Source: Lepraria neglecta
Lineage: Eukaryota; Ascomycota; Lecanoromycetes; Lecanorales; Stereocaulaceae
Direction of reading: 5' to 3'
Assembly (NCBI GenBank): GCA_033220425.1
Contig: CM065651.1
Span: 2,914,001 to 2,978,000, forward strand
DNA: 64,000 bases
Part shown: piece after piece, positions 23,095-55,487 of the stretch
Position numbering within the stretch: the stretch's first letter is position 1
How the letters are laid out: each line of letters starts with the position of its first letter
The notes under the pieces: generated by a model
Database searches by the model: none
What the model was told of the DNA's origin: nothing
The model's input: only the letters and a program-made list of their open reading frames with translations
Made by a program: the position numbers and the translations under genes

Positions 23095-23274
23095 TACGTC
23101 AGCTGATGCACGGCCTCACCTGATGCACGATTTTGGCTCCACCACCACCTTTAGTTTTGAAGCTATCTACGCCTATATACATATCTAATATATCTAATTT
23201 TTTGATAGGCACATCTATCAGGCTATCACATAGTTGGTTGATATTGCTTAGGAAGACGGGTTTGCCTTCCACGA
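23095..23274 (-). mobile_element. D1, pogo/Fot-type DNA transposon, left end
   Basis: D1 is a Tc1/mariner-superfamily (pogo/Fot) transposon cut into pieces by later insertions. This piece holds the last codons of the transposase on the minus strand (RGRQTRLPKQYQPTM, stop at 23226-23228), then a terminal region with two copies of CTGATGCACG (about 23103 and 23121). Its reading continues across E1 into 54374-55071: the target duplication CACGA at both E1 edges proves the join. The outer edge near 23095 (TTACGTCAGCTGATG) is my estimate of the terminal inverted repeat; the other end lies outside the window. Confidence 0.6.
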
Positions 23275-23691
23275 TGTTACGAACCGTGTTGCGTACCGAC
23301 GGTTCTATGGATTGATTCTCAATGGGGATGGATGTGTAACAGCGCAAGAGTATGAAGCAGGCTTCAAATGATGCTAAGCGGGTCTGGTATATAATCAGAT
23401 GATGTATATATTCAGTGCCTAGCCTAAGAGATCTATCGCATGTAGTAAGTACTAGATGTAAACAGAAGTTGAGCACGATGCTCCAAGTGGTGAGCAAGTG
23501 CTCGTATATATAGCAATAGGAAATCCCTGCCAAGCCTTCATGAGCGTTATGAGCGCACGGTACTCATTGCGCTCATCATTCTTGAGCGCCATGAGCGCAC
23601 GGCGCTCGTTGCGCTCATCGCTTCAGCTGCTAGTCCTGTCTATAGTACCGTGTCCTACAGGACAGTCCTGTCAGAACCATTGGTTCTAACA
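23275..23691 (-). repeat. E1 3' LTR
   Basis: 417 bp, begins TGTTAC and ends CTAACA on the plus strand. It contains clustered GAGCGC words and two short palindromes near its right end (GTCCTACAGGAC; AGAACCATTGGTTCT at 23673-23687). Confidence 0.9.
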
Positions 23692-24373
23692 CTAGCTCCC
23701 TCCTCCAGATTTCTCGTCCCGAGAAACTATCTATCCTTTATACTACCCCGTCAAATCACCCGATCTAAGGACCCTATCGTTCGTCGCAAAGAACTCTCTA
23801 GCGAATTATCTACATTCGTGATACGTCCTTATACTTTGTATACGAAGGGGCACAAGTAGTATATAGTGGGCGCGCGTTCGGATCGTTGTTCTAACTGTAT
23901 TACCGCGGGCAAGAAGTGCGACCTGGTCGTATCTATTAACGAGATATATCGTATTAAGAAAGTACGTGATAATATATAGTCGGAAATAAAGGAAACGCAG
24001 GCGAAGCTTATACGCCTTTAATTATAATTTAACTTTGTCTAAAACGAAGAGAAGAAGTTAATCGAGTACGAGCTATAGAATATTAAGGAATTGGAGAAGG
24101 ATAAGGAACTTCCTTCTGGTACCCCCGATGACCTAATATTCAACGTCGGTTCCGAGCAGTTCGACCTCCCCCCGGCCTGGAAGGCCCCGAGAGCTTCGAC
24201 TGGTCCTCTCTTATTTCTAATAGAACTCTTAGAGACATTCCCTATAGTTCCCCGCAAGGTTCCTAAGAGGTTCCTAGGTACTTTCCGTTTTATCGTACCC
24301 TTTCTATTTAACTAGATAGAACTAATTTCTTCTATCTAGGATCCTCTCGACCTCGTACTCTGTTTCTTCCTTA
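23692..24373 (+). other. antisense accessory ORF region of E1
   Basis: On the strand opposite to pol, this stretch is related to the better-preserved copy in E4 (55488-55980): the same start region after the LTR, a Cys-bearing segment, a Lys/Glu-rich segment and a shared FNVGSEQFDLP-type motif. It is broken here, and E2 is inserted at its far end. Confidence 0.65.
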
Positions 24374-27300
24374 TGTAACGGGGTCTAGGTATACGTGACT
24401 AATGCAACTGGTAGATTTGCTACTAGATAGACTGAATCCTAAGGAACTCAGGTAGGAGTCCTTAGAGATAATATATTTATCGAGGGAGATTGCACCCTCG
24501 TATCAAGCCGATCCACTATACGACTTGCGCTATTATATAGCCGTACTAGAGGGATAGTCTCCCGAACCTGGTCTAGTATCTCTATAGTCGGCCCTTATAA
24601 TTATCCTCTCTTTTCTAAAACGAGCTCCTATAAGGTAGTAAGCGTAGGAAGAAGAATAATAGTAATTAGCTACCCCTACCGGAGCAGCTTTATAGTACGC
24701 CGGTACCCTATTATATAGATATTATACTAATATACTAGTAATTATTAGATAACTACTGAGCAGACGAGATCCGACTCGAAGTCCGAGTCGATTAGTTAGA
24801 TCGATATCTTTCGAACTTTAATCCTTCCGTCTTATATAACGCCTTAGTCTTATTAAAACTATAAAAACCTCCCTAGTAGATAGGAAAATAGATAAAAGAG
24901 TACTATCGGTTATAGTATCGCTACGGATATTAACGCTTTCTTCTACCCTTACCCTTATTCGTAGATATAGGTCTCTTTAGAATATATTATTATAGCCTCC
25001 TTCCAGCGGCTACCGATTCTACTATAGACCTATTAGGGTATTCCTTATAAAACTTTCCTAATAGCTTCTATAGATAAGAGACCCCCTTGAAGGGTTCCTA
25101 AGTATCCTCTAAATTAGGATAACCTTCCTAATAGATTTAATAGTATAGGCCTCCTGCCTTACTATCCTTACTAGGTTTAAAAATTATACTATCTATAATA
25201 CTAGCGATAATATAGTCCTGTATATCGCCCTCGTCGAATTCTATATCCTCTAGACTTTAGCTTATCTCCCTCTACTTTAAAGAGTCCTTTTCTAGTAAGG
25301 ATATATAGAATATATTATAAATTCGCTAGCTATCTAGTAGCTTTAGTTAGTATAACTATAAGCTAATAATATCTATAATAAGGAATAGACCGAATTTCTT
25401 AAACTCTAGCTTCCTATTTCGCTTTATCTTTATATACTTAGTATTTAACTAAATATAGTTATCGACTTTATAGTCTTATAACTTCCGATATCTATTAGCA
25501 AACTCTACTTATAATTACTATATAGCTAAGATAGTATCCTTATATACGCCTATTAGTATAAATAAGTATTTTATATTATTAACTACAGCGCGAGAATAAG
25601 ATTTTAGATCGATTTCCTCGTCCTAAGATATCCTTAGACTATAGCCAAGGTTAGCCTCGAATAGCGATATACTAGTAGTAGAGTTCTTTATATTATTATA
25701 AGCAAACTCTACTATAGGTAACTACTATACCTAGTCGTCCTACTCCTAGTAGACGAACGCTTATAAGTATTATTCTATAGTACTATTCTATCGCTTAGTC
25801 TAGCTATTAGTCTAAGGGTAAAAAGCTATCGAGAGGCGATATCTTACCCCTAGGAAATACGTAAGGCTAGACTAGAACTGAGAGGTAAATAGTAACCTAC
25901 GGTCCGTTACTATAGAGTCCGGTAATCTATAATAGCGAACTAGGTTCTTAATTAGTACCTAGGCGAACTACTTAGCGTTAAGTATCTTATCTACTACTAT
26001 ATAATATAATATCTTTATAAGACGGTCTACGATTATAAGGATTAAGTCGTATATATACCTACGCTAATCTTTCAATAGGGGTAGCCTAGTTATAAAGTCT
26101 AATAATATATCCTTCTACTTATAAGTAGGGACTAGTAAGGGTATTAACTTACTATACGGTTTATACCTTAACGACTTAGTTATAGTATATATAGAGTATA
26201 TAGTAATATATTCTTATATCCTTGGCAAGCTTTAGCTAGAAGTACTTATATTAAATAAGTGCTTAAGTCTTCTTAGTACCGAAATGGCCTGCTAGCGGAC
26301 TATTATAATAGTATTCTATAACGACGTCTCGTAATACCTTAGGAATATATATTCGTCCCTTATAGTATAGTCTACCTCTAGCGAGACTATAGGGTTAGCT
26401 ACTTAGGCCGCTTAGAGAGTTAATTATAGATTTCTTTAATTATTCTATAACGTTCCTCGTATAATTATCCTTAAGAGTTAACTCTTTAAGTTAATTATTA
26501 AAAGACTAATTCTTAATAGAGTTACCCGTAGGGTCTTCGATTATAATAGTAGCTCGTATTTAGGCCTACTATCTATATATACCGGGTACCCTATTAGTAC
26601 TAGTAATAAGTATCTAAAAGTAGCCTGCTATAAAAGTAGACCGCCCTATAGTACAGAACCCTTATAGGGTATACTTTAGTTTATTAAGTAGATAATAGTT
26701 CTCTTATTTAGTAATACTATTATCCTACTTATAGTCAGGGATCCGACTTAGTAGGTCCGCGGGATTATATTTCCTCTAATAATATTTGATAGTAAAGTTA
26801 TAGCGACTTAGTTCTTGCGCCTAACGAATCTAATAACTATTTAGTTATATAGTACTTATAAATCTCTTAAGATTATAATAATCTATTAAGACCTAAGTCT
26901 TATACCTGCTACCCTTATAGTAGTAGCGCTAGTATTTAAATAACTCGATAATAGCTAATAGTTCTTTATTATACGTGTCGTATCGGGTCTCTACCGGAAT
27001 TTATTTATATAAGTAGTATACTACTAGGTACCAAACTTCGCTATATAACTAACTTAGGATACTACTAATAGTATAGCCCGATATATTAGTCTCTACCTAT
27101 ATTAGTAGTTCCGGGTTAAAGTACCTTAGTACTAGTATAGTAGTAAAAGCTATCTTTAAATCTTTAAAGGCCTTCTTTACCTCGGGTATAAGAATAAACG
27201 GACTCTTAGAGCTCTTTTTATTTATCTTGGTACCTCTAGATATAGTAATTATATCCCTCTATACGTTAAAGACTACTCGGGCGTATAAGTCTATATCTTT

Positions 27301-30300
27301 AGTAGCTACTCGGGCGTACAAGTCTATACCTTTAAGGACTACTCGGGTATACGAGTCTATATCTAGGGTGCCTTTAGATATAATATTTATATCCCTCTAT
27401 ACTATACCTCTAAATATAATATCTATACTTCTCTATATATTAGAGACTACTCGGGCGTACAAGTCTATATCTCTTTTAGGTAGTAATATCTTTATTAACT
27501 CTATTAGAGGAGCTATAATACGACTAAACCCCTTAATAAACCTATAATAGAAATTCGCAAAGCCTACGAAGACCTGAATCTCTTGAACAGATTTTAGTTC
27601 TAGCCAGTTCTTAACTAACTAGATATAGTCTTCCTCTATACTTACCCCTATAGAGGCGATAATATAGCCTAGGAAGTATACCTTATCTATACTAAAATAA
27701 TACTTCTAAAGATTAATAAATAGGCTATACTATCTTAATTTGTCTAGAACCTACTTTATAGCCTTAATATACTTAGTACTAATATCTTACGTATAAATAA
27801 GAATATTATTAAGGTAAATAATATAGAAGATATCTAGCTTTTCGGCTAATACTTGATTAATATACGCTTAGAACGTTATAGGGGCATTTATAAGCCTAAA
27901 TAGCAAGACTTGGTACTTGAAGTATCTATAACATATTCTAAATATAGTCTTCTACTTATTACCCTTCTTAATACAAAGGCGGTAATATATAGTAGTTAGA
28001 TCTAATTAAGTATACCTCTTAGCTATAGCTAGGCGATTAATAGATTCTCCGACGAGGGGAAGAGGATACTAATTCTTAATCGTGATTATATTCAGTCCTT
28101 AATAGTCTATATAGAGGCGTAGACCTCTACCGGGCTTTCGTACGAAGAGGATTAGTGACCCCGCTAGCGATATAGATAGCTATATAAAGCCGTTAGTAAG
28201 GTTACTCTCAATATAGCCTCGTAAGGTCTTAAGCTCTACCTTATTCAGGTTATAGATAGGACTATAGGGTAGCTATCGCTCGTCCATAAGGTCGATAGTA
28301 TAATCTATAGGTCCGTGCTCTAGTAACCCTATAGTACTACTATCCGAAAAGACGTTAGAGTACTCGCTATACTCCGGCGGTATTTATACTATCTTAGTAG
28401 CAGTACTACTTACCTAACCGATATATACGTGACGATCCCTATAGACCGGAGGCTCGTTAGCGTTTACTACTTGACGCGTATATATAATAAAGTAGTATAC
28501 TTCCTTACTAATAGTAAGCCGAGTGAACTCCTTCGGATCTATAATATCTACTCGATAAGTAGTCGTAAGAGCTACTGCCGCAGTATAGATCCTCTACCGG
28601 AATAACTTCTTAACCTAATTAATATCTGGATTCGCTATGGTTAGCTATAGTATACTAAGAATTATTCGGGTATTAATATCTATAGTAAGAAAGATATCCT
28701 GAAAGTAGCGGACTCGGCCTTATTCGTCCTCTTGCTAGAATTCGATATAGTATATCCCGTAGGTCTTTACTACCTCTCTATAGATCGTACTCAGCCTAAT
28801 ATTGGTATTAAGTACTAGTAAGCCTATCTTCTAGGCGCTTATACGGTTGATAATGTTTACTTCAGCCCTACTATCTACTAGTATACTAAAAGTCTTGGTC
28901 TTACCCTTTGTATTTAGTACTAGGGTATTACTAATAAAGATACTATCTATCTTTAACAGTTCCTTAATTCGCTAGGTTACAGCGTGAACCTTTACCGCCT
29001 ATACTCTTGTATTAATAATAGGTTCTACCTTAGTAGCTAGCGGGGTATTCGATTCAACATTCGACTTAGTATTCGACTCGATATTTAACTCGGTATTCGA
29101 CTCGATATTCGACTCGATATTCTAACTCGGACTAGTATTACCTAATAAGATATCTATTAGCTCGGATTCATCGATAGGAGGAGTCGTTATAATTACTCCT
29201 CGTATAGGTATAGCGGTCGGAGCTATTACTATACCTACTTGTTTTTTGCTGTATTAAGTATTGCTTAGGTATTATATAATATTTGTTCCTTTACTATATA
29301 ATCGCGCGTCTTATATCCAGATAACCCGTATTTAAAGCACGCCTAATCTTTCTATTAGCGGTCCCGGATATCTTTAGATAATTTATCCTTCTATATAATA
29401 AAGGGAGGCTTATTACCTAAGTCCTTCTTACTATTATAACCCTTCTTCTAATTATAATTGGCTATTCGGTTAGATTTATTATCCTTCTTCGAAACTTAGG
29501 GTTTCGTAGACCCCTTAGGACGAGACTTATCTCTCTATCTATCCTTCTATATATATATTCTTACTATTTTCTCGTATTAGTAAACCTAATATAATAGTTC
29601 GTATATAGTCTTTAGCCTAGGAATTAGCTCGTCTAGCTTTATCCTATACTCCTAAAGTAGTTATACTCGGAAGTAGTCGAAGAATTATTAATTAGTAAAA
29701 GATTATTCCCTGTCAAGGGCCCTAAGGCGAATATATAGCTTATATATATAGTTATAATACTTATTAACCGAATCGCCCTTTCGCTATCTTACGTTTACTA
29801 GATTCTAGCTACCTTCGGTATACGCCTCGTCTTTATCGCCCTCGAGGAACTTATATAATAATATCTTGAAATATATCTACGAGTTAGCCCCTACCGGGAA
29901 CTATAGTAACTAAGACTTCTAGTTAGTCTTAGCTCTATCCTCTAGGAAGCCTATAGCGTAAGCGACTTTCTTCTTTATTTCCTCCCTTTAATATACTTAG
30001 CCCGCTAGTATCTCGCCTTCGGGGTCTTCTTGCTTAAAGCCCTTAGTATTGAACTAACGCTCGTATTCGTATAGAAAGTTATCTAGTTCCTCCGGGGTGT
30101 TACCCTTATATAGCTTTAGGTCTTTTATCTTTAAGCTTAGGATTGATCTCTTTACTATCCCTTACGTCTTAAAACTTAATAAGGCCTATCGATAGTATAT
30201 CTAATAGGCCTGAAACGCTGTATACTCCTTAGCGTTTACCTGTATTATGCTGGCACCGGCTTCTTCGCCTATATCGGCTCCTCTAAGCGTACTATCGCTA

Positions 30301-30751
30301 GGATCTAATCTAAGTTATTATCTTACTCCCGCTAAGGAAGCTATTACGACTTATAGTTAACTATTCGATTCGATATTCGATTCGAATTTTAACTAACTGG
30401 CTCGACGCCGGCGTCAATCGGTAGGTAGGTAGCGGTAACGGTGGTTATAGTATTGGTCGGTTATTAGACGGGTATACCCCCCTTACTATCGTGTCGATAA
30501 TAGCGAGAGTTTAAGGATTCAGAAATATAATAGGGTCTAGGTATGCGTGACTAATACAACTAGTGGATTTACTACTAGATAGACTGAATCCTAAGGAACT
30601 TAGGTAGGAGTCCTTAGAGACAATACATTTATTGAGAGAGATTGCACCCTCGTATCAAGCCGATCCACTATACGACTTGCGCTGTCGCATAGCCGTACCA
30701 GAGGGATAGTCTCCCGAACCTAGTCTAGCATCTCTATAGTCGGCCCTTACA
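24374..30751 (-). mobile_element. E2, Ty3/gypsy LTR retrotransposon inserted in E1, broken
   Basis: 226-bp LTRs at 24374-24599 and 30526-30751, TSD CCTTA on both sides (24369-24373 and 30752-30756). E4 carries the same site uninterrupted near 56112, confirming the insertion. Sense is minus: gag about 30480-29300 with a CCHC knuckle near 29295-29345, protease near 28850-28890, reverse transcriptase with a YLDD-type motif near 27795-27835, integrase roughly 26900-25700. Many (tens of) breaks; strongly AT-shifted. It is a different family from E1, with shorter LTRs. Confidence 0.88.
27226..27475. repeat. minisatellite inside E2 pol
   Basis: The motif ACTACTCGGGCGTACAAGTC (with small changes) occurs near 27271, 27305, 27337 and 27444, alternating with a degenerate ATATCCCTCTATAC block. 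The array lies between the reverse-transcriptase and integrase regions of E2. Confidence 0.7.
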
Positions 30752-33700
30752 CCTTAATATTATAGTAAAATATTTCTTAGAGAGATATACTAGAGTCTAC
30801 TAGCTCTAGAAGTAAGATATAGAATACCGGATATACCTTTACGTCAGGTAGAAGTTAGAGTTTATAGTTAACCGGTCCTTTTATCCGTTTAATTAAGAAT
30901 AGTCTAACCTTAATATAATCTAGTTTCTTGCTTAGTCTTATTATCCTTATATTTTTTATTAGAAGATATACTTTATCCCCCTCTTTTAGCTAAGGAATAT
31001 TCTTTCTTTTCTTATTAATTTATTCCTTTAACTTTTTATTTAAGCTTTTAATAGACTTTTATATATCTTTATATAAACTCTTAAGCTCTTCTATCTTAAC
31101 TAAGGCTTTTTCTATATTAGGTCCTTATTTTAGTTATAGAAATATATTTATATTCTTCCCGTGGTTGGCGAAGAATAGGGTTAGGCCTGTCGTATCTAAC
31201 CTTTTATTATTATACGCTAGTTATACTATTAGAAGTAGTAAAACCTAGTTATCTTACTTCTAGTTTATATAGTATCTTAAATATACTTCTATTATTTAAT
31301 TTACATATTCCGTTTATCTATTAGTTTATAGATAATATACTATTAATATCCGAAGTTTGGTTCCAATTGCTGCTATAAGTGTTCTCTAGTAGTTAGAAGT
31401 AAATAACTTATCTCTATCGGATATTATCGACTTTAGTATACTATAATTTCTTATTAGTTTATCGAGTAACACGAAGGCTAACTAATCCGCTTTATAGATT
31501 TCTTTGAATAGTATTATAATCGTATACTTCGTTAGTTTATCTATAATGACTATAATTAAGTTAAAGGTATCCTATATAGCTAGGTCCTTTAATGGTAGTA
31601 GTTTAACTATAAAGTCTATTATAATATTATCCTATAGTAATTCTAGTATAGGCGCAAATTATATTTGCCTATACTTGGCGTATTATACCGCCTTGTTCTA
31701 CTGGCACTAGATATATTCTTTAATATATTACTCAACGCGTACCCGAAGCTTCGGTACCGCGTATCCTCGTCCTAGGAGTTCTATAGTCTTAGATACTCTA
31801 GGGTAACCTTGTAAAGGGTCGTTGTGGTAATCCCTGATTACTTCGTTAATATATATATTAGGTAAATAGATCTTATCTTAATATTTAAGTAATACTAAAT
31901 CCTACTAATCCTCCCGTAGTTTTATTACGAATGTATTGTTATTATAGACCCTTACGATTCTATTATTTATATTAGGTTCTAATATATAAAGGGTCGTAGC
32001 TAATACCTAGTATAGTAATAGCGATCCGTCCGCTTCTTTCTTTAGGATTAGTTATTCTATAATATTCTTTTCTTCTATATAGTCTAATTGCCTACTAAGG
32101 GTATCTACTCGACTATTATCCTTTCCTAGGGTATAGGTTATCTTGAATTTATATTAACCTAATAGTTCTAACTATTAAACCTATCTTCTATTTAATTCTT
32201 TTATTATTATAAAGTTAAGAAGGTTCTTATAATCCGTAAAGATAGTTAGATCTAAGTAGCTCTCTACGTATACTCGCTAGTTCTATAATATATATACTAT
32301 AGTAAGTAGTTCCTTATTGTATATATTATAGTTCTATTCTACTACTAATATCTTCCTTGAATAGTAGGTAACTAGATACTACTTTTGGTCCTTTATTTGA
32401 TATAGGTATACTCTAATTACAAGATTCGATATATCTGTTTCGATATAAGCTGGCTCGTTTACTTAAAAGGTATAGAGTACTAGTAGATCTATATATACTT
32501 TCTTTAATATATTAAATGATTTCTATTAGTCTTTTCCCTATATAAACCTAATATCTTTTTTTATAATATCTATTAGAGATAGTACTTTCTTAGAATAGCC
32601 CTCGATAAACTTCCTATTAAAGTTAGTAAATCCTAAGAAGCTTTATACTACTTTAATATCCTATAGTATAGGCTATTTAGCTATAGCTTTAATCTTCTCT
32701 AGGCTTATACTAATACCTTTTATACTAACTATAAATCCTAGAAATTCTACTAATTCTTTATAGAACTCGTACTTTTCTAGTTTAAGAAGAAGTTTTACCT
32801 ATAATAGGTATCTAAGGACATTCTATATATACTCTATATATTCTTTCTTATTCTTAGAATAGATTAGTATATTATCGAGGTATACTATCGCTATTCGATC
32901 TAAGTATACTCGTATAATATTATTAACAAGTACTTAGTAGGTTACTAGTACGTTAGTGAGTCTAAACGGTATTACTAGATACTTATAGTAGCTATATCTC
33001 GTTTAGAAGGTAGTTTTCTATTCCTCGCCTTCTTTCATCCAAATTAGGTTATATATACCTCTAAGATCTAGTTTAGTAAATATCTTTGCTTTACCGAGCT
33101 AATCCTATAGCTCTTCTATATTTAGTAATAGATATCTATTCTTGATTATAATATCGTTTAACTTTTAATAGTCGATATATAGCCGTAAGCTTCTATCCTT
33201 CTTTAGTATAAAGAGGATAGGGTAACCTACTAGTAATTTGGATTCCTAAATAAATCCCTTTTTAAGGTTCTTATTAATATACCCGCGAAGTATCTTAAGT
33301 TCCTTTTCTAATAATACGTAAATAGGTCTAAATATCGGCTATTTACTAGGTTCGAGTTCGATCTTATAATCCTATAGCTAGTACCTAGGTAATACTTCTA
33401 TATTTATCTCTTTCTCGAATAAGTATATCTATCTACTATATTCCTAAGGGATAGAGGGTATATTAGTTCCTCCCTTAACTCTTACTTTATTATCCCGCTA
33501 ACCTTTACTAGTAACTATAGAGTTAGACTACCTTTTAGTACCGTCCTTATACGAAGCTAAGGTAATATATACCTTAACCGGTCTTCGGTTCGACTTCTTA
33601 TCTACTATTAAACGCTACTAATATATAGGTATAATCCTAGTAATATTGCCGGATTAATCCATTTTAAGTACTCCTCGAGCCTAATCGATTATTAGGTTAT

Positions 33701-34444
33701 ACTTCTTTAACTAAGGTATTCCTAAAATTATATAATAGATAGCTATCCTAATAATATTAAAGGTAATCTCCTTATAGTAGCGCTAAATTATAATAGGTAA
33801 CGAAAGTATCTCTTCGTCTACCTTTCCTATTAATAGTATTAACCTATTAGCTATCTAAAGGTTATACTAGTGTAACTTCTTCTAAGTTAGTATTCTAGTT
33901 ATTTATACTAAGTCTCGCGAGATAAAGTTCCTAGTAGCTCTAGAATCTATTATCGCAACGGTCTACTGTCCGTTAATAATTACCGGTGTTTTTACATATA
34001 TATTATATTGCGCGGAATATAGATGTTATTTAGGGGTTAATATATTAATCTCCTTATAGCTACCCCTACTATAAGGGATTACTCTTTTCCCTGCAGAAAT
34101 CCGGATATAGATTCTATCTACTTATATATTGGGAGTAGGAATCCTACTTCGGATTTTTCTTTCTTATATTCCGTGCAGTTATTATATAAATAGGCGTACC
34201 AATCTTTTAGATAGCACTTCTCTATATATAGATGGTATATTATTTCTTTCTTGACACGTTCTAACTAATCCGTATTATTTCCTAGGAAGAACTAGTAAAG
34301 TCTCTTTGTTGCTAGATGAAATTCGTATTCATTTCTCTTATAGTTATAGTAGAAGTCTTGGCCATAGTGAGCTTTCTTTACTAGTCCCTTTCTATAACTT
34401 CTTAGCGTGCTATACTATACGTAATAAAGCGTAGTATATTCTTC
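30752..34444 (-). mobile_element. E1 pol segment between the E2 and E3 insertions
   Basis: Minus-strand remnants of integrase (about 31000-32000, DFIVKL and DKLTKY-type words), RNase H (about 32200-32450), reverse transcriptase (about 32650-33250) and protease (about 33930-33965). It is collinear with E4 at 56110-59775 and with E5 (opposite strand) from about 62000. Ends at the TSD TCTTC of E3. Confidence 0.85.
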
Positions 34445-34896
34445 TATAAGGTATGCTCCCCGTCAGCGGGCCGTTATCGCTCCGTGAACTAGGCTCCTCG
34501 CTAGCGGACCGTTGCTACGCCCTAGGATCTGCGTCCCGCGGGCGCTACGATATCGGACTACGGCTTAGCTCTTCGCTGGCGTTACGCTACTATATACAAA
34601 GGTATTCAAAGACGTGAAGTGGTTATATCACTAGTATAGTATAGATAGTTCTATATTAGAACTAATTACTAAGGATCCTCAAGAAAGAAGTGGGTAGACC
34701 GCTCCTTAAGCTTCTTCCTACGGGTAATATATAGCCGCTATTAGGCAGCTAGCGCACCACTAAGAACCTAGCTCCTAATAGCTACTAAGTCGGTCGAATA
34801 TTATTCCGATCCACGCTAGCGCTCCGCGCACTAAGAGATATTAGAATAGCTTTACTAATAAGGTAGACCGCTTCTAATATAATAGTTAGTATTATA
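34445..34896 (-). repeat. E3 3' LTR
   Basis: 452 bp, GC-rich first half (CAGCGGGCCGTTATCGCTC region), same length as its partner at 52126-52577. Confidence 0.88.
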
Positions 34897-35569
34897 ATTA
34901 TCTCCCCCTTAAGTACTAGCCCTCTAGTATAAACCTATAGCGGCGTATATTCGTAGCGCACACCGATAGTAGGGCTAGATAGTTATATATAGAGCTCGTT
35001 AAAAACCTTCTAAAACCCGATAGGAAAAAGGAGGGAAAAGAGTCTCTACTTTATACAAGCTCCGAAATAACGCGAGTATATTTACTACCGTAGTAACAAG
35101 ATTATAAGGTAAATTTATTTCGAAGTGAATCTTATATAATACTGGCTAACCGCCGTCGCAATGTTAAAAACCCTGTAGATTCCCCTTTCACTTTCTTCCT
35201 TTATAACTCCTACTACTTATAGTATATAACCTATAATCTAATACTCCTTTAATAGGTATAGACTCTAATTAATAATAGATTATCTTATTATAATAATTTT
35301 CGATTCCTAAGTAAGCAGAGCTATCGCGGAGTCGTTGTAGAATACTATTAATATCTTGATAGTTAATAATAGTAGTAGTACTAGAAGTAAGTATAATTTA
35401 ATACGTAAGAGCCCTGCTATCGGGGCGCTACTAATATTCGCAGTGGCGGACCTCCCGTATAGGCCGTGCCTTCGGGCACAAGTCTAGTACTACTATAGGC
35501 TAGTACCTCCTTGTACTCGGTACAAGGGGGCACGATATAGAGTGAACCGTTGTGTTATAGTATAGGTAT

Positions 35570-36620
35570 CACTTAATATTCTACCTGCGTTCCGCTAATG
35601 TTAAAGATACTACTAGAGTTTAGGGCAGAGGCCCGGGCGCTCTCCGCTAAGTTAGCCGGTAGTATAGCGGCGGCGGGCGTGTCACGCCCGTTAGTCTAAC
35701 GTATTAGGGACCTGCTTCGGCAGGTTACCTAGTAGCGTAAGGACCACGGTATAACCCCCGCCATGTCGTGCCATCGGTCGGCTCGGCAGGTGGCCGACCT
35801 GGAGGGGAGGGTACGGGTGTTAGTAAGAATTCTGAATCTGTAAGTTAACTCCGCTAACTCGCCGCAGGAGGTAAGTTATATCCTATTCTTTCCTTCTCTA
35901 TCCTTCTATTATACCGCTTTTCTTAACTCCGCTTATACGCCTTATACGCTACGTATATACCGACTAATTTCTTCTAGGATAAGGTAGAAGGGCTGCGTAT
36001 TATAAGCGCGGAGGCGAGTATAGCGGAGGAGAGTAAGGAGGAGGAAGAGGAGAGGAGGAAGAGAAAGAGGAAGAGGAAGAGAAAGAGGAAGAGGAAGAGG
36101 AAGAGGAAGAGGAAGAGGAAGAGGAAGAGGAAGAGGAAGAGGAAGAGGAAGAGGAAGAGGAAGAGGAAGAGGAAGAGGAAGAGGAAGAGGAAGAGGAAGA
36201 GGAAGAGGAAGAGGAAGAGGAAGAGGAAGAGGAAGAGGAAGAGGAAGAGGAAGAGGAAGAGGAAGAGGAAGAGGAAGAGGAAGAGGAAGAGGAAGAGGAA
36301 GAGGAAGAGGAAGAGGAAGAGGAAGAGGAAGAGGAAGAGGAAGAGGAGTAGGAGGGGTTTAGGGAAAGTAGGGAGGATAACGAAGAGGAGGTAGAGGAAG
36401 AAGAGGAGGTAGAGGAAGAGGAGGTAAGCTCTAGCGTACCGCCTGTTACCGCTATATGCTAAGTTATGTAGCTACCTGTAAGCCAACCTCGGAGTAACGT
36501 CGTTCGAGGTACTATATTAGAGGACCTAGAGGAGAGGAGGATAGAGGAGAGGAGGGTAAGGAGGAGGGAGAAGAGAAAAGAGAGGAGGAGAGCTATAAAA
36601 GTAGCGAAGAGGGTAAGTGA
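35570..36620 (+). other. GC-richer antisense ORF-like region of E3
   Basis: On the strand opposite to pol, about 35620-35870 reads with Ala/Arg/Leu-rich words (ARALSAKLAGS; SARQVADLEGRVRVLVRILN) typical of a helical or coiled protein, then runs into the Lys/Arg/Glu-coding purine tract. It lies between pol and the 3' LTR, the same place as the antisense ORF of E1/E4. It is broken and has no recognised domain. Confidence 0.45.
36041..36352 (+). repeat. (GAGGAA)n hexanucleotide microsatellite
   Basis: A run of almost pure GAGGAA, about 260 bp of it perfect (roughly 43 units), flanked by GAGAAAGAGGAA variants. The purine strand codes alternating basic and acidic residues in a plus-strand frame. 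Confidence 0.95.
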
Positions 36621-44138: not shown

Positions 44139-47100
44139 GAATTATAGGGTAGAAGGTATTGTTTATTGAGTTGATTAAAGAAGAAGAAGCTATTTATATA
44201 TAGAGATTTTAATGAAGATAGTACTGACTAAGCAATTTCCAACACAACCCCATAAGTGCACGCTACTATCGCTGTCGCTAAATAGTCTAAAAATAGAAAT
44301 TTCATGGTGTTTTGTATATAATCCTTCCTTTAGGTCTATTATCCTTTCAATTCTCTTTCCTATTGGCTAATATCTTCTAACATCCCTATTAGCCTCACGA
44401 ACCTGCTAAATTTAACTTTATCTAGTGGTTTGGTGAGTCCGTCAGTAGCCATTTGGTCTATAGGGTAATATTTGAATTCCACTTCACCGCTAAGAACCTT
44501 CTCGCGTACGAAGTGCTACTATATATCGATGTGCTTGGTCCGAGTGTGGAATTTTAGATCCTTAGTGAGTATAATTACTCCCTGATTGTCTGCCTTTATG
44601 GTGACCGGTATCGTCGGCGCTTGATGGCCAAGATCTAGCTCTGCAAGTAGTCTAGTTATCCAAATAGCTTCCTTAGAAGCCTGCGTCTGTGCCATATATT
44701 CGGCCTCGCAGGAGGACAGTACAACGGTAGGTTAACGCTTGGAGGACCAGCTAATAGCACCCCCATGAAGGGTAAATATATAGCCACCGGTAGATCTTCT
44801 TGTTGTTTTGTTACTAGCCTAGTTAGTATCCGTATATCCAATAAGGCCTTGTCCTTCACCGTAGATAATTCCTCGGTCCGGTATTCCCTTAAGATATCGG
44901 AGGACCCGCTTAGCTATAGTAAGGTGCGTCTTATTTAGATTATAAGCAAATCGAGAAAGAATTCTAACGGCAAGGCTAATATCTGGACGAGTCTCAATTA
45001 TAGTATATATCAAGGATCCAATGAGAGACTAGTAGTACTTGACCTCATTGGGTGATGCTACGAGGATCTCTTCTGGTTCTAATTGGGCTATAGAGATTAT
45101 CGGTGTATCTGCAGCCGAGTAGTTACTCATATTGAATTTGGTTAGGACCTTCCTAATATATACCTTCTAAGAGATTTAGACAGTCTTAGCCTTACGGTCT
45201 CGTTCAATTTCTATTCTAAGATATTAATAGTAAGGTCCTAGGTTAGTCATTTCATATTCCTTGCTAAGCTTGTCCTTAAGAGTCTATATTTAGGTTGATC
45301 CTTTTGGTCCAAAGATCTGTAGATTATCTATATAGATACTAACAATAAGCTTGGTAATCTTGTTGATAAAAACCGAATAATTAGCCTAGAGGTGATGAAA
45401 ATCGCACGTCTCTAGGAAAGCCCGTATAGTGTAGTACCATTCTCGAGGTGCTTGCTTGAGTCTATACAGTGCTCGATTTAGAAGGTAGACTCTCTTGTCT
45501 TTGACATATCCAGTAGGCTACTTAATATAGATTATCTCCTTGTATATAGAGTTTAGAAAGGCTATAATAATATCTATTTATTCAGCGTCCAAATCGTTTC
45601 GAGCTATAAGTATATATAGAATTTTGAATAATATAGGTTTCACTACTAAGGTAAAGGTCTAGTTAAAATTTATTCCTTGTTGCTATTCAAAGCCTCGGAT
45701 AACCTATCGAGCTTTGAATAAGACTATTCTATTAGCCTTCTTCTTTAGCTTAAAAACCCATTTGCCTTTTAGGACTAGTTAATTATCTAGTCTTAGATAT
45801 AGATCCCATATATTTATCTTTTCGAATATACTTATCTCTTTATCGGCTATAGCCTTCTATTACTTTAAGAGTAGTGAACTTATTACCTTTTCCTATATAC
45901 TTAGCTCTATCCTATAGTTATCTAAGGTATCTTGAATTATTACTTTGTATACCTTGGTCTAACTAATTATTTCTACTACTATATCTAGATTAAAATCGGG
46001 ATCGAAATTATAGTAGTAACGGGATTCTAGATCCATAGTGGCTAAGCGACAGTATAGTTCTTCTAATTTAATAATTTGATCGGCTATAGAGACTACTCCC
46101 TTTGCCTAGTCCTTAGGGTTCTTCTATCTCTTGTTTTAAGCTTACTTTTAAGAAATCTCCTTTTGTCGAGTGGATTTACGAATCTCTTACGAGCGATAAG
46201 TAGAATCGGTACTTGGATCTAGGTGAGTCTCTGGCTTATTAGGAAGTACCTCTTCTAGATCCTACTCCTCTAGGGTCTTAGTTTCATTTGAGGTCTGCTT
46301 AGGTGGCCCTGATTCTATAGCTTCTTCCGAATTTGGGTCGTCGGTAGTACTATCTAGTAGAAGTAGATGAATCGCAACATCACCCCTATTATCTACGTTA
46401 TTAGTACTATCGCTGATGTTATCTATAGAGTAGTCGGATATATCCTTAGCAAGCATCTTTGTTTTATCGAATCGGATATCCTTAGCGCGGAGGATACTAC
46501 TAGTACTAGGATCCTATAGGCGGAATTGATTAGAGCTCTTATAGCTAATAAGGAAACACTTCTTACTCCTATTATCGAGCTTCTTCCGCTTCTCCTTTAG
46601 GATATAAACCTATACGGTATAGCTAATAATCCTTAGATGGAATATATTTGGAACTCTATCAAACTATACCTGATATAGAGTTATCCTATTAAGTCGTGAG
46701 GTAGGGCTAAGGTTCTTTAAATAGACCTTTATATATAGGAGTTCGCTCTAGAGTCCTATAGGGAGGCCTATATCGGCTAATATTAAGCGGACACCCCCAA
46801 TAATAGTACGGTTCTGTACTTCTGCTAATCTATTCTACTTAGGGGCGTAAGGAACAGAGAGCTCCTATTAGATACTATCCTTTTCGAATAGTTCTTTAAA
46901 TTACTAATTAATATACTCCTTTCCGTTATCTAAGCGAATAGCCTTTAGCTTTTTTCCACTTTAAGACTTAGCTATTATTTTCTAGGTAGAAAAGCGGCTG
47001 AATACCTGACTCTTCTTTTTAAACGTAAATATCTAGGTCTATCCCGTTGCCTCATCGGTAATTAGTATATATATAGTATATCCGGTAACTGAACGAGTTG

Positions 47101-49299
47101 AGAATGGTCCTCTAAGGTCTATATATACTCTCTCTAGCTTAGTAGTGACCTTTGTATATAGCTTCCGAGATATCTTCTTTGTGAATTTGCCCTTAGTATA
47201 CCTAGAACAAATAGTAGACGTCGAAGGCTTTGTAGATAGGTCAATCCCTTTTGCTATCGATGGTAGTTACTTGAGGTTAGACTTATTAAGGTGTCCAAGA
47301 CGCTTATACTATAGACGGAGTGCGTTTTGATTATATAATAATCTAATAGTAAGCTTTGCCGTTGTATAGCTAATGTTAAGGACGTACTGGTTTGCTAATT
47401 TTAGTACAGTACTAACTAGAATATTAGCCTTGGAGATCTTACAGCTAGAACCTAAGAAAGCAATACTATATCCTTTTATAGTAGCTTGATATATAGAGAA
47501 GAGTCCGCATTGCAGATAGGGAATATATAGAACGTTATTAATTCGGGTAACTCTAGCCTTATTGTTCGGTAGAATGAACTCTATATTAATCGATCCTCTC
47601 CCCTAAGTATAGATTATAGTACCGTTAGCAATATGGATAGCCTTGCGGAGAGACGTGTAGTTGATGAATTCTTCCCGATCGTGGTATATATAATTAGTAT
47701 ATCTAGAGTTAATAATCCAGTCGGTAACCTTATATATAAGTGGTATTATTAAGGCTATATAGACGCTAGAAGAATCGGGCAGTTGGTTACGAAACTTGAC
47801 TAGGCAGGACTTAGACTGTCTTAGTAGATGGATCTATAGTAAACCTTACTCCTTAGGTACCTCTTCTTTACTAGATTCTAGTAAGGGAGTATATATATCG
47901 AAGCTAAGGTTTCGCTCGTCCAATATTACTGTATAAGTAAATATAGTCTCTTCTTCGAAAGTATTAGATTCGACGTCGTCTTTATCGAGTAGACTTAGTA
48001 TAGCTATAGAGGTAAATAAGCCGAACTAAGGAGCTACTATATCGTTATCGTTATAGTCGTAGTTGCCTCCTATAGCGGTATTAGCCTTTTCATTCTTCGT
48101 TTTGTAGTAGTTAGGGCGTAATTCTAGATATAGTATCCAATATATCTCTTTCGGGTGGATCTTCTTCTTCTTCCCTTTAGGGCAATATTTATACTCCCCT
48201 TCCTCGTGTATTTCGGTTTGCTTTAAGCTCTTTTAAGCCTTTGTACGCGCGGCTACTATAGCCGTCGATATAACTTCTTGCTTAGCTAGACGGTCTTCCT
48301 TATAGAGAAGCTTGACGACTTCTTCAAAGTCCGGTTCTCTAGTAGCCGTAAGGACTATTCGATAGACGAAGTCTATATATTTTTCATCAAGGTTATTAAG
48401 TAGTATTAAGATTAGGATCCAATTAGGGACGGTAGTATTTATATTCTTGAGGTCCTTTGTATTAGTGCGGATCCTATATATATAGCTATCTACTAAGCCT
48501 TCGCAGTCTCCGATTATCGTTGTTATTAGTTTCTAAAAAGCCGTATACCGTATAGTAAAGCCTGAGTCTTAGTAGTTTTCTTTGAGCTTGCACTAAATAA
48601 GGAAGGTATTGTCTATATCCTCGACTATAGAGGTAGGCTTATCTATATAGTATATGACGAGCAGCTAGGCTACTTTCCGATTCTTGACACTCTATTCCTT
48701 ATAAATTCGTTCTAATTTAGTCTTCTCTACTATAGTAGGGGCCGCTTTTGTAACCTTCCTAGTATTATCTTTCTCCTTAGTCTATAGCGTTAGATAGAAC
48801 TCTAAGCCGTTAACGACTTCCCAGTAGCCTTCCCACTTTATTAATCCCTTTATACTTCTCGTCTATAGGCGGTAGTTATCTATACCAATGAGCTTGTCGA
48901 ATTTCCAGACTCCGTAGCCTCCGGAAGATATATTATCGGATATAATAGCATGTGGTCTTAAAGTATACGGGGTTGACGCGTTCTTAGATGATAGATATAG
49001 TAGAGGGTAGAGTACTTAGTATCTTTTATAGAAGATGGCGCGGTTTTAACAGAGTTCTGAGGTTTGTATTATTTGTAGTATTGAGACGAAAACGTGTTTT
49101 CTGTCTACAATCACTGTAAGGTATTACGAACCTCTTTCCGGAATCAATTCAACTAATAAGCAATTACTTAGCTTACCGGGCTTATAACCTAACAAATTAT
49201 AGGGCAGAAGATATTGTTTATTGAGTTGATTAAAGAAGAAGAAGCTATTTATATATAGAGATTTTAATGAAGATAGTACTGACTAAGCAATTTCCAATA
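44139..49299 (-). mobile_element. E7, Ty1/copia LTR retrotransposon with very short LTRs, inserted in E6
   Basis: Terminal direct repeats of about 106 bp lie at 44139-44244 and 49194-49299 (shared core from ATTATAGGG to the AGCAATTTCCAA end). Flanking words GGTAA and GGTAG differ by one transition and are the likely TSD. Sense is minus: gag about 48990-47900 with a zinc-knuckle relic near 48170-48230, integrase about 47500-46600, linker, reverse transcriptase about 45760-45060, RNase H about 45013-44400 (TRPDISLAVRILSRFAYN is readable). Length about 5.16 kb. Broken in many places. As the innermost element it should be the youngest of the stack. Confidence 0.82.
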
Positions 49300-51390
49300 G
49301 GTAGCTATATAACCGGATAATAGGGACTTGTTTCTCTTTGCCGATTAGGTAGTTAGTTAGATTATTAAAGTAGAAGCCTGCTTAGTCGAGGTCTCGTAGG
49401 CAGAGGAGAAAAGGGGTGTCAGCGTCAACAATATAGAATTCGATAGTACTAATTAGTAATTGGATAGCGACGGTGCCCTTTGATAAGGCGTCGCCAATAC
49501 TAAACTTAAACTTAGCGGTGCCAGCCTTATCCGTATTAATATTGACGTTTTACTCGCGCCGTAGTGCCAAGTATTAATTGAATCCTGCGGACGAGTTGTG
49601 GGCGGCACCTGTATTAATCATGAGGCCGCGGAAATGGTTGTCGCCGTATCTACTTACTAGGCAGCGAGGCGCTGATTAATATAGCGCTAGTATTAGTAAT
49701 TCTCCTAGGATGTTAATATATGGATCTTGGGTAAATATCGATCTTGTAACAGCGTGGAGGGTAGCCTGATTGGTTAGCTTCCGGTACGCAGCCTTGCCGT
49801 TAATAGGGCCTATTAATATTAGAAATAACTTATTATCCTCCTGTTTATCGGCCTCGTTGTCGTCGGAGGTATTATTAGCGGTATTATCATTATTGTTTTC
49901 TTCCTTACCGCCTTCAATATCGGTGATATATTACTTAATACTACGTTGGCGTTCCTCCTTAGGGTGGTTAGTTAACTAATATCCTTTCTTCTTGCAGACG
50001 AAGCACCGCTTTTTGGCTTTAGGGTCGCAGTTAGAGTTATTGGAGTCGTATCTTGGTTTACTTGGATATCTGGATTGGTCGCGATTGCTAGATTCCCGGT
50101 TACGGTAGCGGCGGTCTATATATATTGTTTCGCTTAGTAATAAGAGGCTGTAACGGTCTTGTAAGGCTATAGATAATCGAAGGTCTTGGATGAGATCTTG
50201 TATAGCGTTTGGTAGTTTTCGGTAAACTATTTCACAAGTAGATATAGACTCGCAGGTAGTAACAATCTTCTAGTAGATAAAGCTATCTCCATAAATACTT
50301 TCCTCCAAGCTATATTATAGTTCTCTTAGTCTAGATATTATAGCGTTAAGGTATTCAGTTAGGGTTTTATCTTTATTACAGTTGATAAAGAGCTATAGGG
50401 ATATACCGTTCCATTCGTTTAGACGGGCGATCTAGTATTCTCTTCCCTCGAAGTTTCCTTTGAATACGGTTCTTAGGGAGTCTAGATTTATTGATAAGAA
50501 CGACGATTAGTTACTAAAATAGAAGTTAAGTACGTCGCCGTTTAGTATATACTGAAACGCTATAGGGAGTCCGATCAATAGTATCCCCGCGTTAGAGGCG
50601 GTAACCAAGAATATATTCAGCTTATAGTCGAAAGCGTTACTCCTTCTATTATACTTTATCTCTTCTATATAGAGTTTAGTAAGGGCGGTAAGTTCCCGGG
50701 AAAGGCCTTACTCCTAGTAGTTAGCGATAGCGTTATAGATTTTAAGGCCGTTAATTAGAGCCGTTTAGAAGGGTGTCTAGAAGCGCTTTTATATTGTTTC
50801 GAGATTGATTAGCAATAGTATACCGGCTTGGAATAGTAATAGCGAAGGTATATCGGTTTTGACTAATAAAGGCGTGTTATTACCGGGGATAGTAAGGGAA
50901 TCTTAGTAGTATTTCTTCGTGTTTGGAAGGGGCTCTTCTAGAGGCCATTCTTGCCACGGCTAGACTAATAGATTTACTATATATTTATAGACTAGTGTCT
51001 TATTCCTAGGTATATAGACCTTGCGGCCGAAAAATAGGTTCCGAAAGTCATATATAATACGTTTTTCTACCTTAGTAAACGACCGCTCGTCCTAATCGTA
51101 GAAGTCTTCCGCAAAGCTTATCTATAGGCTATATCCTTCCTTATTATAGCTTTCGTAATAGCTCGTTAATTATATAGTATATATTCCTAGGGCGGTAGCT
51201 AACGACTTTGTAGGGTCTATAAGGACGATACCGTATAGGGTTATAGTCCCCTCGTGTTCCTCCTCTATAGTTAGTTATATTATTATAGGGTTTATACAGG
51301 GTTTAGTGCGGAGCTTGGTATTTGGTATTGTAGTATTACAGTCGAATTTTTCTGTTATATCTTACTAATCTAAGGTCGACTACTAATTAG

Positions 51391-51606
51391 TGTCGGTATA
51401 ACCTATAGTAGGGTTATACCGATAGTTAGCTTGTATAATCCCCTATTACCCGCCCTGAGTAGCCTATATATAGGCTGCTTCTATAGGTAGGTAAAATGGG
51501 GATTGATTCTTCTATAGATTGGAGCTATAGTATTTTATCTAGAAAGGGGCGCCAAGTACGGATCACGTGACTCAGCAAGTTTGCGGAGTGCGGAATAGTT
51601 CCGATA
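51391..51606 (-). repeat. E6 5' LTR
   Basis: 216 bp, paired with 40993-41208. CACGTGACTCA is kept at 51564-51574. Confidence 0.88.
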
Positions 51607-52125
51607 CTTCCGAAAGTATTGGCGCTACTATATCGCTGTATCCCCTTCTAGGGACTATATATAGTAGAGGATTTTCGCCCTATCGGTAGTGAAATATTTA
51701 GGACTCAGGAGGAATTTGATTTCGACGTTGGCGAACTAGCGAATATACTCTCCTTCGCTATTGCCGTAATAGAGCCGTATCTTTTCAGGGCGTATTATCT
51801 TTGCTACTAGTAAGATCGATAGTACCTCGCTATTACTAAGCCCCTTAAAGTCTTCTGTATCGGCTTCAGCTCCCAGTCGAAGCTCTGCGTTCCGAGCTTC
51901 TAACTCCCGGACGCGTTTTTCTTCTAATAAGTGTTGGTTTTCTACCTCAAGTTAGGTAATCCTCTACTGGAGTGCCGGAGATAAAAGGGTCGAGTCCGAG
52001 GACTCTACTGTCGGTAGGTTATCGGGGCGCGTAGTCTCCGGTTCTAGTTCTTCTAAAGAGCGCGGTTATCTTGCTATAATATCCTACTCCGGGCCTTTGG
52101 CCTCAAAGATTAGAGTGATTAGAAC

Positions 52126-52577
52126 TGTAAGGTATACTCCCTGTCAGCGGGCCGTTATCGCTCTGTGAACTAGGCTCCTCGCTGGCGGACCGTTGCTGTG
52201 CCCTAGGATCTGCGTCCCGCGGGCGCTACGATGTCGGACTGCGGCTTAGCTCTTCGCTAGCGTTACGCTACTATATATAAAGGTATTCAAAGACGTGAAG
52301 TGGTCATATCACTAGTATAGTATAGATAGTTCTGTATTAGAACTAATTACTAAGGATCCTTAAGAAAGAAGTAGGTAGACCGCTCCTTAAGCTTCTTCCT
52401 ACGGGTAATATATAGCCGCTATTAGGCAGCTAGCGCACCACTAAGAACCTAGCTCCTGATAGCTGCCAAGTCGGTCGAATATCATTCCGATCCACGCTAG
52501 CGCTCCGCGCACTAAGAGATATCGGAATAGCTTCACTAACAAGGCAGACTCCTTCCAACATGATAGTTGGTATTATA
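52126..52577 (-). repeat. E3 5' LTR
   Basis: 452 bp; pairs with 34445-34896 and is followed directly by the TSD TCTTC and then by E1 gag. Confidence 0.88.
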
Positions 52578-53956
52578 TCTTCCCATAGTAACTCTTTGTG
52601 TCTTCGATGATTCCGATCTTGTCAATAATCTAGTTTCTTATTATCCTATTATAATTCCTTAGAGTCTTCTTTTTCCTTAGACGTAGTGGATCTAGGTATT
52701 AATTCCCTTAGTGGTTATATATTTTCCTACTTAGCTTCTAACGTGCTAAGGGCTTCTTCCTACTCTGGGTCTATTCCTTCTTCCTAATCCTACTCGAATT
52801 CTTCCTAAGTACTACTACCGTCTCTATTATCTAAGTCTTCCTTAGTTTATAAGTTAACGTCCTCTATAAGTTCATCCTCGCTTTTAGATTTATAGTTGTA
52901 TTATTCTTGCGTCATCCTATTATACTAGGAGTTAATATCTTTAACTTCGTCCTATAGTAGTAGAATTTCCTTAGGCGTATTATCTATATTGTCCTAGGTA
53001 TATACTCTTTCTAGTACGTTTAGCTGCGGTTGATATACTATATTTTTCGACTTATAGTCTCTAGTGAAGTAGCCCGGTTTGCTATAGCTATAATACGTTA
53101 GTGTTTTCTTGCCCCCCTACTACTTCTTACCCCTAGCTGGCCCTTTATAAGGCCTCTTGCCCTTTCTTTCTATAAAGTCTAGTTCTATTAGTATATATCT
53201 ATAAGGGTTGTATTCTCCTTTATATCCTAGGCGATAGCTCTTTAATTTAGTAAAAAAGCTTAAGTACCCTATCTCGCTAACTCCTCTATTATACCTTTTC
53301 TCTATAGTCCTTTTAAATAACTTATTATTAATTTTAATTACTTCTTTAATTAGTTTATCTAGGGTATTAATAATAATCTCTAACCTTATAAGCTCGTCTT
53401 TAACGTTGTCCTTAAGACCTCTTCGGTATATAGTTATTAATATATTATTATCCTAGTTAGTCTTTACTATATACTACTAAAACTAAGTCGAGTATTCTAA
53501 TATAGACTTCTTCTAAGTTAAGTGCTAAATAGTTTATATTACTATATTAACTTTGTTTAACGGACCGAATATACGGCGGATTTCGAGTCTAAATATAGCT
53601 ATACTCTCTATCTATAATTTAATTTCGCTATCTTCGTCGTTATCTTCTATATACTTCTTTAGGAATAGATTAACCTATTTTTGGGCTCTTCTATATAAGT
53701 AGGTAATAGCGAAGGTAGGATATCTCTAAATAGGTATTAAGTCCCCTTAGAACTTCAGATATAATAATACCTAGAATAGCTATCCTTCGAGCTTATCTCT
53801 TTCTCTATAGTATAAGTTAGGCTAGGCTATCTTAATATACCTACTAAGTCCTTCGTTAATAGTAGGGTGTCTCTATCCGCTTCCTCCTCCTAAGGAGCTT
53901 AAGGTAGATACCCTAGGGTCTCTTAGTATAGCACTCATCCTTGAGGGTGCTTAAAG
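52578..53956 (-). mobile_element. E1 gag segment right of the E3 insertion
   Basis: Minus-strand gag remnant, collinear with the gag of E5 (60274-61600, plus strand). The CCHC knuckle relic lies near 53070-53110. It ends at the E1 5' LTR. Confidence 0.8.
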
Positions 53957-54373
53957 TGTTATAAACCGTATTGCGTACTGACGGTTCTATAGATTGATTC
54001 TTAATAGGGATGGATGTATAATAGCGTAAGAGTATAAAGCAGGCTTCAAATGATACTAAGCGGGTCTAGTATATAATTAGATGATATATATATTCAGTGC
54101 CTAGCCTAAGAGATCTATCGTATATAGTAAGTACTAGATGTAAATAGAAGTTGAGCACGATACTCCAAGTGGTAAGTAAGTACTCGTATATAAAGCAATA
54201 GGAAATCCCTGCCAAGCCTTCATAAGCGTTATGAGCGCACGGTGCTCATTGCGCTCATTATTCTTGAGCGCCATGAGCGCACGGCGCTCGTTGCGCTCAT
54301 CGCTTCAGCTGCTAGTCCTATCTATAGTACCGTGTCCTATAGGACAGTCCTGTCAGAACCATTGGTTCTAACA
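53957..54373 (-). repeat. E1 5' LTR
   Basis: 417 bp, the same length as its partner at 23275-23691, followed by the TSD CACGA. Differences from the partner are mainly transitions. Confidence 0.9.
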
Positions 54374-55071
54374 CACGAGTATTCAGGGGTAGGGGATCTT
54401 TCGTATCTTCTACTACTACTAAATCTCTATTACCCCTAGGATCGCTTTGTTTTTAAGCTTGGATAGGCTTTTGAACCTTCTTAGCTCTTATTATAAGCTT
54501 ACTATAAAGCTACTTACTAGCTTGCTTAGCTTATATAGCCTTATCTTTTTGTTGCTGTTTTTCAGCTAGTTTGCGCAATTTTAATTCCCTTATATTTGCC
54601 CTGATAGCTTTTCGTTCCTTAACTTTTTAAGCTCTTTCTACCTTTTCGGCTTCCTTATAAACCCTATTAAGCTCTTTTTAATAATATTGAGCTATTATAT
54701 TAGCATCTTTTTAAGCTTGTTAGTCGCGCGTATACTAGACCTTAGTAGGTGAATAGAATATTGCTCTACTATTTTCCTAAGTAGGAAAATCTAGTAATAA
54801 CGGCTTGCCACGCTTTCGACGCTTCTTTTCGTTAACTAGGCTTTATTTAAGGCCATCGTTTTATTATTTTAGTAGTATATTCTCAATAGATAGCGCATAT
54901 ATTGTGTTGCTTAGCTACTGCGCCTTTTTGTTATAGATATTGGAAACTATATTATATAGCAGCTTTTCAATATATTTCCAATCTTCTATAGCTATTACTA
55001 AGCGGGTAGAAGAGGTAGAAGAAGACCGATTATTATTCTTTTTAGTAAACTTGGTAATAATAAGCTCAGGA
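54374..55071 (-). mobile_element. D1, pogo/Fot-type transposase C-terminal segment
   Basis: Minus-strand remnant of a DDE transposase tail: KRRKRGKPLLLDFP and ENSRAIFYSPTKV-like words near 54830-54730, then a Lys/Glu/Arg-rich helical tail (KAIRANIRELKLRKLAEKQQ), the usual C-terminus of fungal pogo/Fot transposases. Several stops created by TAG/TAA triplets (for example after LLLDFPT) show it is dead. The catalytic DDE domain would lie right of E4/E5, outside or not visible in the window. It continues at 23274 across E1. Confidence 0.65.
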
Positions 55072-55439: not shown

Positions 55440-55487
55440 TTAGCTCCCTCCTCCAGATTTCTCGTCCCGAGAAACCATCCATCCTCC

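Follow-up and report, generated by a model that had tools for sequence, protein, structure and literature searches.

Eleven transposon insertions nested within a single pogo/Fot element of Lepraria neglecta

Repeat-induced point mutation (RIP) is a fungal process in which C is changed to T in duplicated DNA, and Fot1/pogo elements are fungal DNA transposons with a DDE_1 transposase, a Tc5-type DNA-binding domain, terminal inverted repeats (TIRs) and a TA target. Nested clusters of transposable elements have been described in Mycosphaerella graminicola (Zymoseptoria tritici), where a base element carries primary and deeper insertions in clusters of 7.5–63 kb (PMC4522978). According to the cluster descriptions in that report, target-site duplications (TSDs) are mostly 4–5 bp, GC content lies below that of the flanks and a CpA-to-TpA pattern is present, while in eight clusters larger than 20 kb the base is a DNA transposon or an unclassified element, with TSDs verified for the primary long terminal repeat (LTR) insertion (PMC4522978). 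Here a nested block is described from Lepraria neglecta, in a window of 64,000 nucleotides (C6:2914001-2978000, where C6 is contig CM065651.1) and the sequence adjoining it. The block spans 62,750 bp, contains 12 elements from eight families nested up to five levels, and is built upon D1, a pogo/Fot transposon.

The block resembles the M. graminicola clusters, as described there, in having a base element, nested insertions, TSDs, low GC content, CpA-to-TpA changes and a similar size (PMC4522978). It differs in that those clusters are given 2–7 different elements each, against 12 elements from eight families in 62.75 kb here, and in that four primary insertions sit on one 2.1-kb pogo element (PMC4522978). 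The stack belongs to a known kind of structure and is ordinary in that respect, but it is unusually well resolved.

Layout of the block and its empty sites

The genome assembly amounts to 42.0 Mb in 11 contigs, eight of which are 4.5–6.3 Mb long, and C6 itself is 4.76 Mb. Extended coordinates are those of the window (1-64000) continued by the adjoining sequence to its right (L009-L024). Window bases 1-23086 are of ordinary composition with a GC content of about 0.5, after which AT-rich DNA runs from 23.1 kb, past the window end, to about 84 kb extended. The 138 kb to the right of the block are again of normal composition with one RIP-like 500-base bin, leaving the block sharply delimited by normal DNA on either side.

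LTR pairs were detected by self-comparison and their boundaries were set at TG...CA ends, or at TA where RIP had changed them. D1 carries 11 insertions, four of them direct and the others inside those guests, and the deepest path runs through D1, E1, E3, E6 and E7 (Table 1). The LTR elements E4, E8, E9, E2' and E1' and the second pogo element, D2, lie partly or wholly outside the window; E9, at first visible as a repeat in two copies, turned out to be a short LTR element. D1 begins at window position 23087 and its TIR recurs inverted at C6:2999788-2999836, which puts its right end, C6:2999836, outside the window as well.

Seven copies of D1 were found, each on a different contig. The six copies other than that of the block are each 2,120 bp long and run unbroken across all four D1 insertion sites, which establishes the empty sites of E1, E4, E2' and D2 and places the entire 62.75-kb block inside one 2.1-kb transposon. 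The first and second pieces of D1 are contiguous in all six, and the overlap at the empty sites is 5 bp for the three LTR guests and 3 bp for D2. Freed of these four guests, the block copy is a 2.1-kb element that differs from each of its relatives at 106–121 of 1,921 sites, with 0–3 transversions each.

An uninterrupted host relative is present for each of the 11 insertions, as judged from copies within the same genome instead of a comparison of strains. The E2 site is unbroken in E4, E8 and E1', the E3 site in E8 and the E9 site in E1; E2 reads through the site at which E1' entered its relative E2', and the E8 site in E4 is unbroken in the homologous stretch within E8 itself. The empty site of E6 in E3 is spanned by all 40 genomic matches that were scored, from 54 first-look candidates. 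Three of six matches span the join of E6 at the E7 site, and two of these do so almost from one end to the other; the remaining three are the window's own two halves and a fragment. The uninterrupted E6 copies lie on C5 and C2, and that on C5 is complete (5,439 bp) and continuous at the E7 site with small indels.

Every level with an LTR pair is flanked by a TSD that matches or differs by transitions only. Among the 10 LTR elements of the whole block seven TSDs are exact and three carry one or two transitions, compared to frequencies of 0.0025 for an exact match and 0.019 for a match with up to two transitions between random 5-mer pairs of the block (binomial p ~7e-17 for seven exact of ten).

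These results bear out the five levels and the order D1, E1, E3, E6, E7 of the original prediction, which had been made from the window's letters, together with E2 as an independent insertion in E1 and E4 as another insertion in D1. The LTR lengths given for E1, E2, E3 and E6 were reproduced, as were the exact TSDs of these four elements and the near match at E7. D1 was rightly named as the base, with its start put at about 23095 and its end beyond the window missed. The elements listed were real and the inventory incomplete, in that E4 continues to 69844 with two insertions of its own and E2' and D2 are also seated in D1.

Table 1. Elements of the nested block, in window coordinates unless marked as extended.
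Element	Type and host	Position	Strand	LTRs	TSD	Remarks
D1, left terminal piece	pogo/Fot base element, with TIR	23087..23274	-			alignable with each of the 6 other copies
D1, second piece	transposase C-terminal part	54379..55071	-			92-94% to 6 other copies over 699 bp
E1	Ty3/gypsy in D1	23275..54373	-	23275-23691/53957-54373, 417 bp	CACGA, 23270-23274 and 54374-54378	6.6 kb minus own inserts
E2	gypsy-type in E1	24374..30751	-	24374-24599/30526-30751, 226 bp	CCTTA, 24369-24373 and 30752-30756	
E3	Ty3/gypsy in E1	34445..52577	-	34445-34896/52126-52577, 452 bp	TCTTC, 34440-34444 and 52578-52582	
E6	LTR element in E3	40993..51606	.	40993-41208/51391-51606, 216 bp	CTTCC, 40988-40992 and 51607-51611	5.4 kb minus insert
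E7	Ty1/copia in E6	44138..49299	-	44138-44244/49193-49299, 107 bp	GGTAA/GGTAG, 44133-44137 and 49300-49304	
E4	E1-family LTR element in D1	55072..64000 in window, ends extended 69844	-	unequal, 368 and 410 bp	CAGGA/TAGGA, 55067-55071 and 69845-69849	strand via homology to E1
E8	inverted E1-family LTR element in E4	59760..64000 in window, ends extended 66538	+	514 bp	TATAC/TGTAT	orientation from inverted homology to E1, not from own reading frames
E9	LTR element in E4	extended 67432-68931 (L009:3432-4931)		183 bp	CTAGT	1.5 kb
E2'	LTR element in D1	extended 70030-82946			GAAAC	
E1'	LTR element in E2'	extended 72364-78895			ATCGG	
D2	second pogo element in D1	extended ~83158-85002				at TA

The insertions of E3 in E1 (34440-34444) and of E8 in E4 (59755-59759) lie, as judged by eye, about 7 bp apart when the two E1-family copies are compared at corresponding positions, through either target preference or coincidence. 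Nested plant LTR elements are described as targeting specific regions of other elements in one report (PMC6911290). Outside the block, a minisatellite-like self-similar array was observed in the gene-rich flank (17828-18547), a DUF6601 domain in the last listed open reading frame to the left (21519-22577) and, immediately to the right, a tandem array whose units repeat about every 126 bp (L011, ~extended 88719-90000).

Protein domains and element classes

The assignment of the base element to pogo/Fot in the original prediction was upheld. The transposase of the D1 family, read on copy L039, contains DDE_1 (E 8.4e-24) and HTH_Tnp_Tc5 (E 1.5e-09). TIRs with TA at both ends are present in the block copy and in five of the six others, L037 reading GT at its right end; the TA can be assigned either to the element or to its target. 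The family is thus like Fot1/pogo in its domains, TIRs, TA ends and length of about 2 kb, and the block copy is unlike it in being interrupted four times and in missing 18 bp near the left end that the six other copies have. The second piece of D1 has 13 stops in the transposase frame and gave no Pfam match on its own. Open frames in the six other copies reach maximum lengths of between 73 and 463 codons, and judged by their reading frames the uninterrupted copies are not necessarily functional.

No open reading frame of at least 150 aa was found at 23–64 kb of the window. Among the LTR elements, E1, E2, E3, E6 and E7 were scanned against Pfam on both strands over their main internal stretches. 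Nothing was found in these stretches on the plus strand; on the minus strand domains were found in E1, E2, E3 and E7 and none in E6. In both E1 and E3 the matches were RVT_1, RNase H, Integrase_H2C2 and SH3_Tf2-1 in gypsy order, SH3_Tf2-1 of E1 being under its cut-off, and the integrase core rve did not pass in the scans of either. E2 gave RNase H and Integrase_H2C2, with no RVT_1 at E 0.001. When tested for reverse transcriptase, RNase H and integrase in gypsy order, E1, E2 and E3 were all placed in Ty3/gypsy. RVT_2 (E 2.7e-42), SH3_retrovirus and Pol_BBD placed E7 in Ty1/copia. Accompanied by LTR pairs and 5-bp TSDs, these pol domains are as in other Ty3/gypsy and Ty1/copia retrotransposons, and no unusual feature was found in these retrotransposons.

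The window copy of E6 matched no Pfam family in six frames at E 0.001, its weak rve match having an E of 0.097, and a genomic copy on C5 (L124) had no domain in six frames at E 0.1. E6 was considered as an autonomous LTR retrotransposon and rejected as such, as these scans found no domains of an encoded pol; it is probably non-autonomous.

Searches of the genome returned at least 43 matches for the E1 LTR, at least 48 for a piece of E2 and at least 41 for the E3 LTR, and 14 each for the E6 LTR and a piece of E7, all of these being numbers of matches and not of copies, because copies that are broken are counted repeatedly. E3 contains, in the stretch separating pol from one of its LTRs, a 12-bp tandem repeat array of about 486 bp (35958-36443) that is purine-rich on the plus strand and coincides with a strong GC skew at 36–37 kb.

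RIP-type mutation across the block

The ten LTR pairs, with 3,119 aligned bases, differ by 206 transitions and 2 transversions. By context, 159 of the transitions are clearly at CpA, 30 at CpA or CpG and 17 at other sites. The same pattern was observed between E2 and E2', with 371 transitions, no transversions and 2 gap positions over 6,378 bases. Transversions are not always absent: E6 and its copy on C5 differ by 353 transitions and 9 transversions over 5,418 bases, and E1, E4, E8 and E1' differ from one another by transversions at 1.0–5.6% of a 3.3–3.6-kb stretch, which we read as divergence that source lineages may have gathered before insertion. The TA/AT ratio is 1.43–1.82 in the nine large LTR elements, whereas the flanks (2 kb each) have values of 0.74 and 0.66. 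Transition-only divergence, a CpA bias and high TA/AT are thus all present in the block, with low indices in E9, D1 and D2, and the mutation pattern points to RIP itself as the probable mutator. Together with the pogo/Fot elements, this pattern is suggestive of a filamentous fungus. E9 has no RIP signature (index -0.11) despite a heavily mutated block and many close genomic matches to its LTR.

RIP load was tried as a clock and rejected, as the RIP index is non-monotonic along the deepest path (D1 0.07, E1 1.15, E3 1.49, E6 1.04, E7 0.85).

The two LTRs of an element are identical at birth and therefore provide a natural test of RIP against position in the repeat block. The outer LTR of E1 (23275-23691), which adjoins the short end of D1 and unique DNA, has one RIP-type change as compared to 26 in the inner LTR (binomial p 4e-7). 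At the opposite edge the outer LTR of E2' (extended 82721-82946) has 5 as compared to 17 in the inner (p 0.017). In the eight remaining pairs p was not below 0.05, E3 coming close (20 to 9, p 0.06). Base composition also approaches normal over ~700 bases at the left margin and ~3 kb at the right; the right-hand stretch consists of D1 and D2, both of which carry few such mutations in any case. The two cases are suggestive of weaker RIP at the block edges.

Accumulation of insertions in one copy of D1

The reading that we regard as close to certain is as follows. D1 jumped into gene-rich fungal chromosomal DNA and was then struck directly four times, by the LTR elements E1, E4 and E2' and by the pogo element D2. 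Secondary insertions followed, of E2 and E3 into E1, E6 into E3, E7 into E6, E8 and E9 into E4 and E1' into E2'. None of these steps calls for more than the ordinary mechanisms, cut-and-paste transposition at TA or integration by an LTR integrase with a 5-bp TSD. RIP would afterwards have mutated the LTR elements present in many copies, raising the AT content of the block. Selection against insertions in the flanking genes would leave D1 and its inserts as a tolerated landing pad in otherwise gene-dense DNA, which is the explanation that we favour.

A number of observations weigh against this reading. The two LTRs of a pair had been expected to be each other's best match, and of E1, E2, E3, E6 and E7 the ranking covered E1, E3 and E6. 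The partner LTR was the best match after itself for E6; that of E3 was 11th among the 41 matches listed in the genome search, and that of E1 was 4th among 43 listed, with only bases 181-416 aligned there. RIP noise can explain such imperfect ranks, and the pairing is still fixed by the TSDs and empty sites. The TSD of E8 contains two mismatches, each of them a transition. The class of E6 is assigned from LTRs and TSD, as no protein domain could be recognised in it. Finally D1, the oldest element by nesting, has an index of 0.07, compared to 0.85–1.53 in its LTR guests except E9; D2 has 0.05. As the index of D1 lies below that of most of its LTR guests, RIP load does not track nesting age.

All four direct insertions fell on one of seven D1 copies, the other six being uninterrupted, which has a chance of 0.003 if the copies are equal. 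This could be explained by targeting, by selection against insertions in flanking genes or by a greater age of the block copy. Under targeting, the first insertion or RIP would have made D1 heterochromatic, and later elements would have integrated there preferentially and not merely survived. We consider this unlikely, though worth entertaining: the comparison of D1 copies was made after the fact, the same count is expected from selection or greater age, Pfam scanning of the E1, E2 and E3 main frames yielded no passing chromodomain, and D1 itself is only lightly RIP-mutated. Equally tentative is the proposal that D1 seeded a self-reinforcing sink in which the first guest made the site repetitive, thus inviting RIP, silencing and further elements, with RIP fading at the block edge; the fading is proposed because the outermost LTRs of E1 and E2' were spared relative to their buried twins.

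A regional centromere of the chromosome would also account for repeated insertions, and 62.75 kb of mostly AT-rich, RIP-mutated retroelements with sharp borders in a 4.76-Mb contig is what might be expected of one. The block is however not unique on its contig, as 14 of 80 samples of C6 (500 bp each, mostly 57 kb apart) were RIP-like, which makes a centromere improbable. Consecutive RIP-like samples at 57–171, 912–1026 and 1482–1539 kb may mark comparable or longer blocks, and the entire block lies within one transposon.

The original prediction had further taken the stack as a relative clock and the locus as long having been an insertion sink. As a relative chronology, the order of nesting holds. 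An old sink with an age readable from LTR divergence is suggested by the seven of ten LTR pairs that differ by 5–10%, which a conventional rate would convert into tens of millions of years; at an assumed 1.05e-9 substitutions per site per year, E1 would be 32 My old and E2' 46 My. We hold this to be very improbable. LTR divergence is unusable as a clock here because the differences are nearly all RIP-type transitions (206 of 208), a pattern repeated without any transversion between E2 and E2', and one change against 26 in the two LTRs of E1 is not expected from time alone. Moreover the guest LTRs are more diverged than those of the host in three of seven pairs (E2 in E1, E7 in E6 and E8 in E4), contradicting the nesting, and less diverged in E3/E1, E6/E3, E9/E4 and E1'/E2', where E3/E1 is nearly tied; the divergences of E7, E6 and E9 stand on 4 or 5 differences each. 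Judged by transversions the insertions look young, and their real age would lie far below the age at the conventional rate; the claim of a long-lived sink is not supported. RIP is mentioned as a possible cause of overestimated insertion times in M. graminicola (PMC4522978), and a Podospora report advises caution on LTR clocks owing to gene conversion and diversifying selection (PMC10787394).

An assembly artefact, with repeats collapsed or mis-joined, might be suspected where a block abounds in repeats and their families are plentiful elsewhere in the genome, but is scarcely credible, because mis-joins would not create matching 5-bp duplications and each LTR element has a matching or transition-only TSD, with uninterrupted relatives besides.

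The block provides a cleanly supported order of insertions in a genome with strong RIP-type mutation. It shows that divergence between LTRs can reverse the actual sequence of insertions and would inflate their ages under RIP. Nesting and transversions are still usable for dating where RIP acts.

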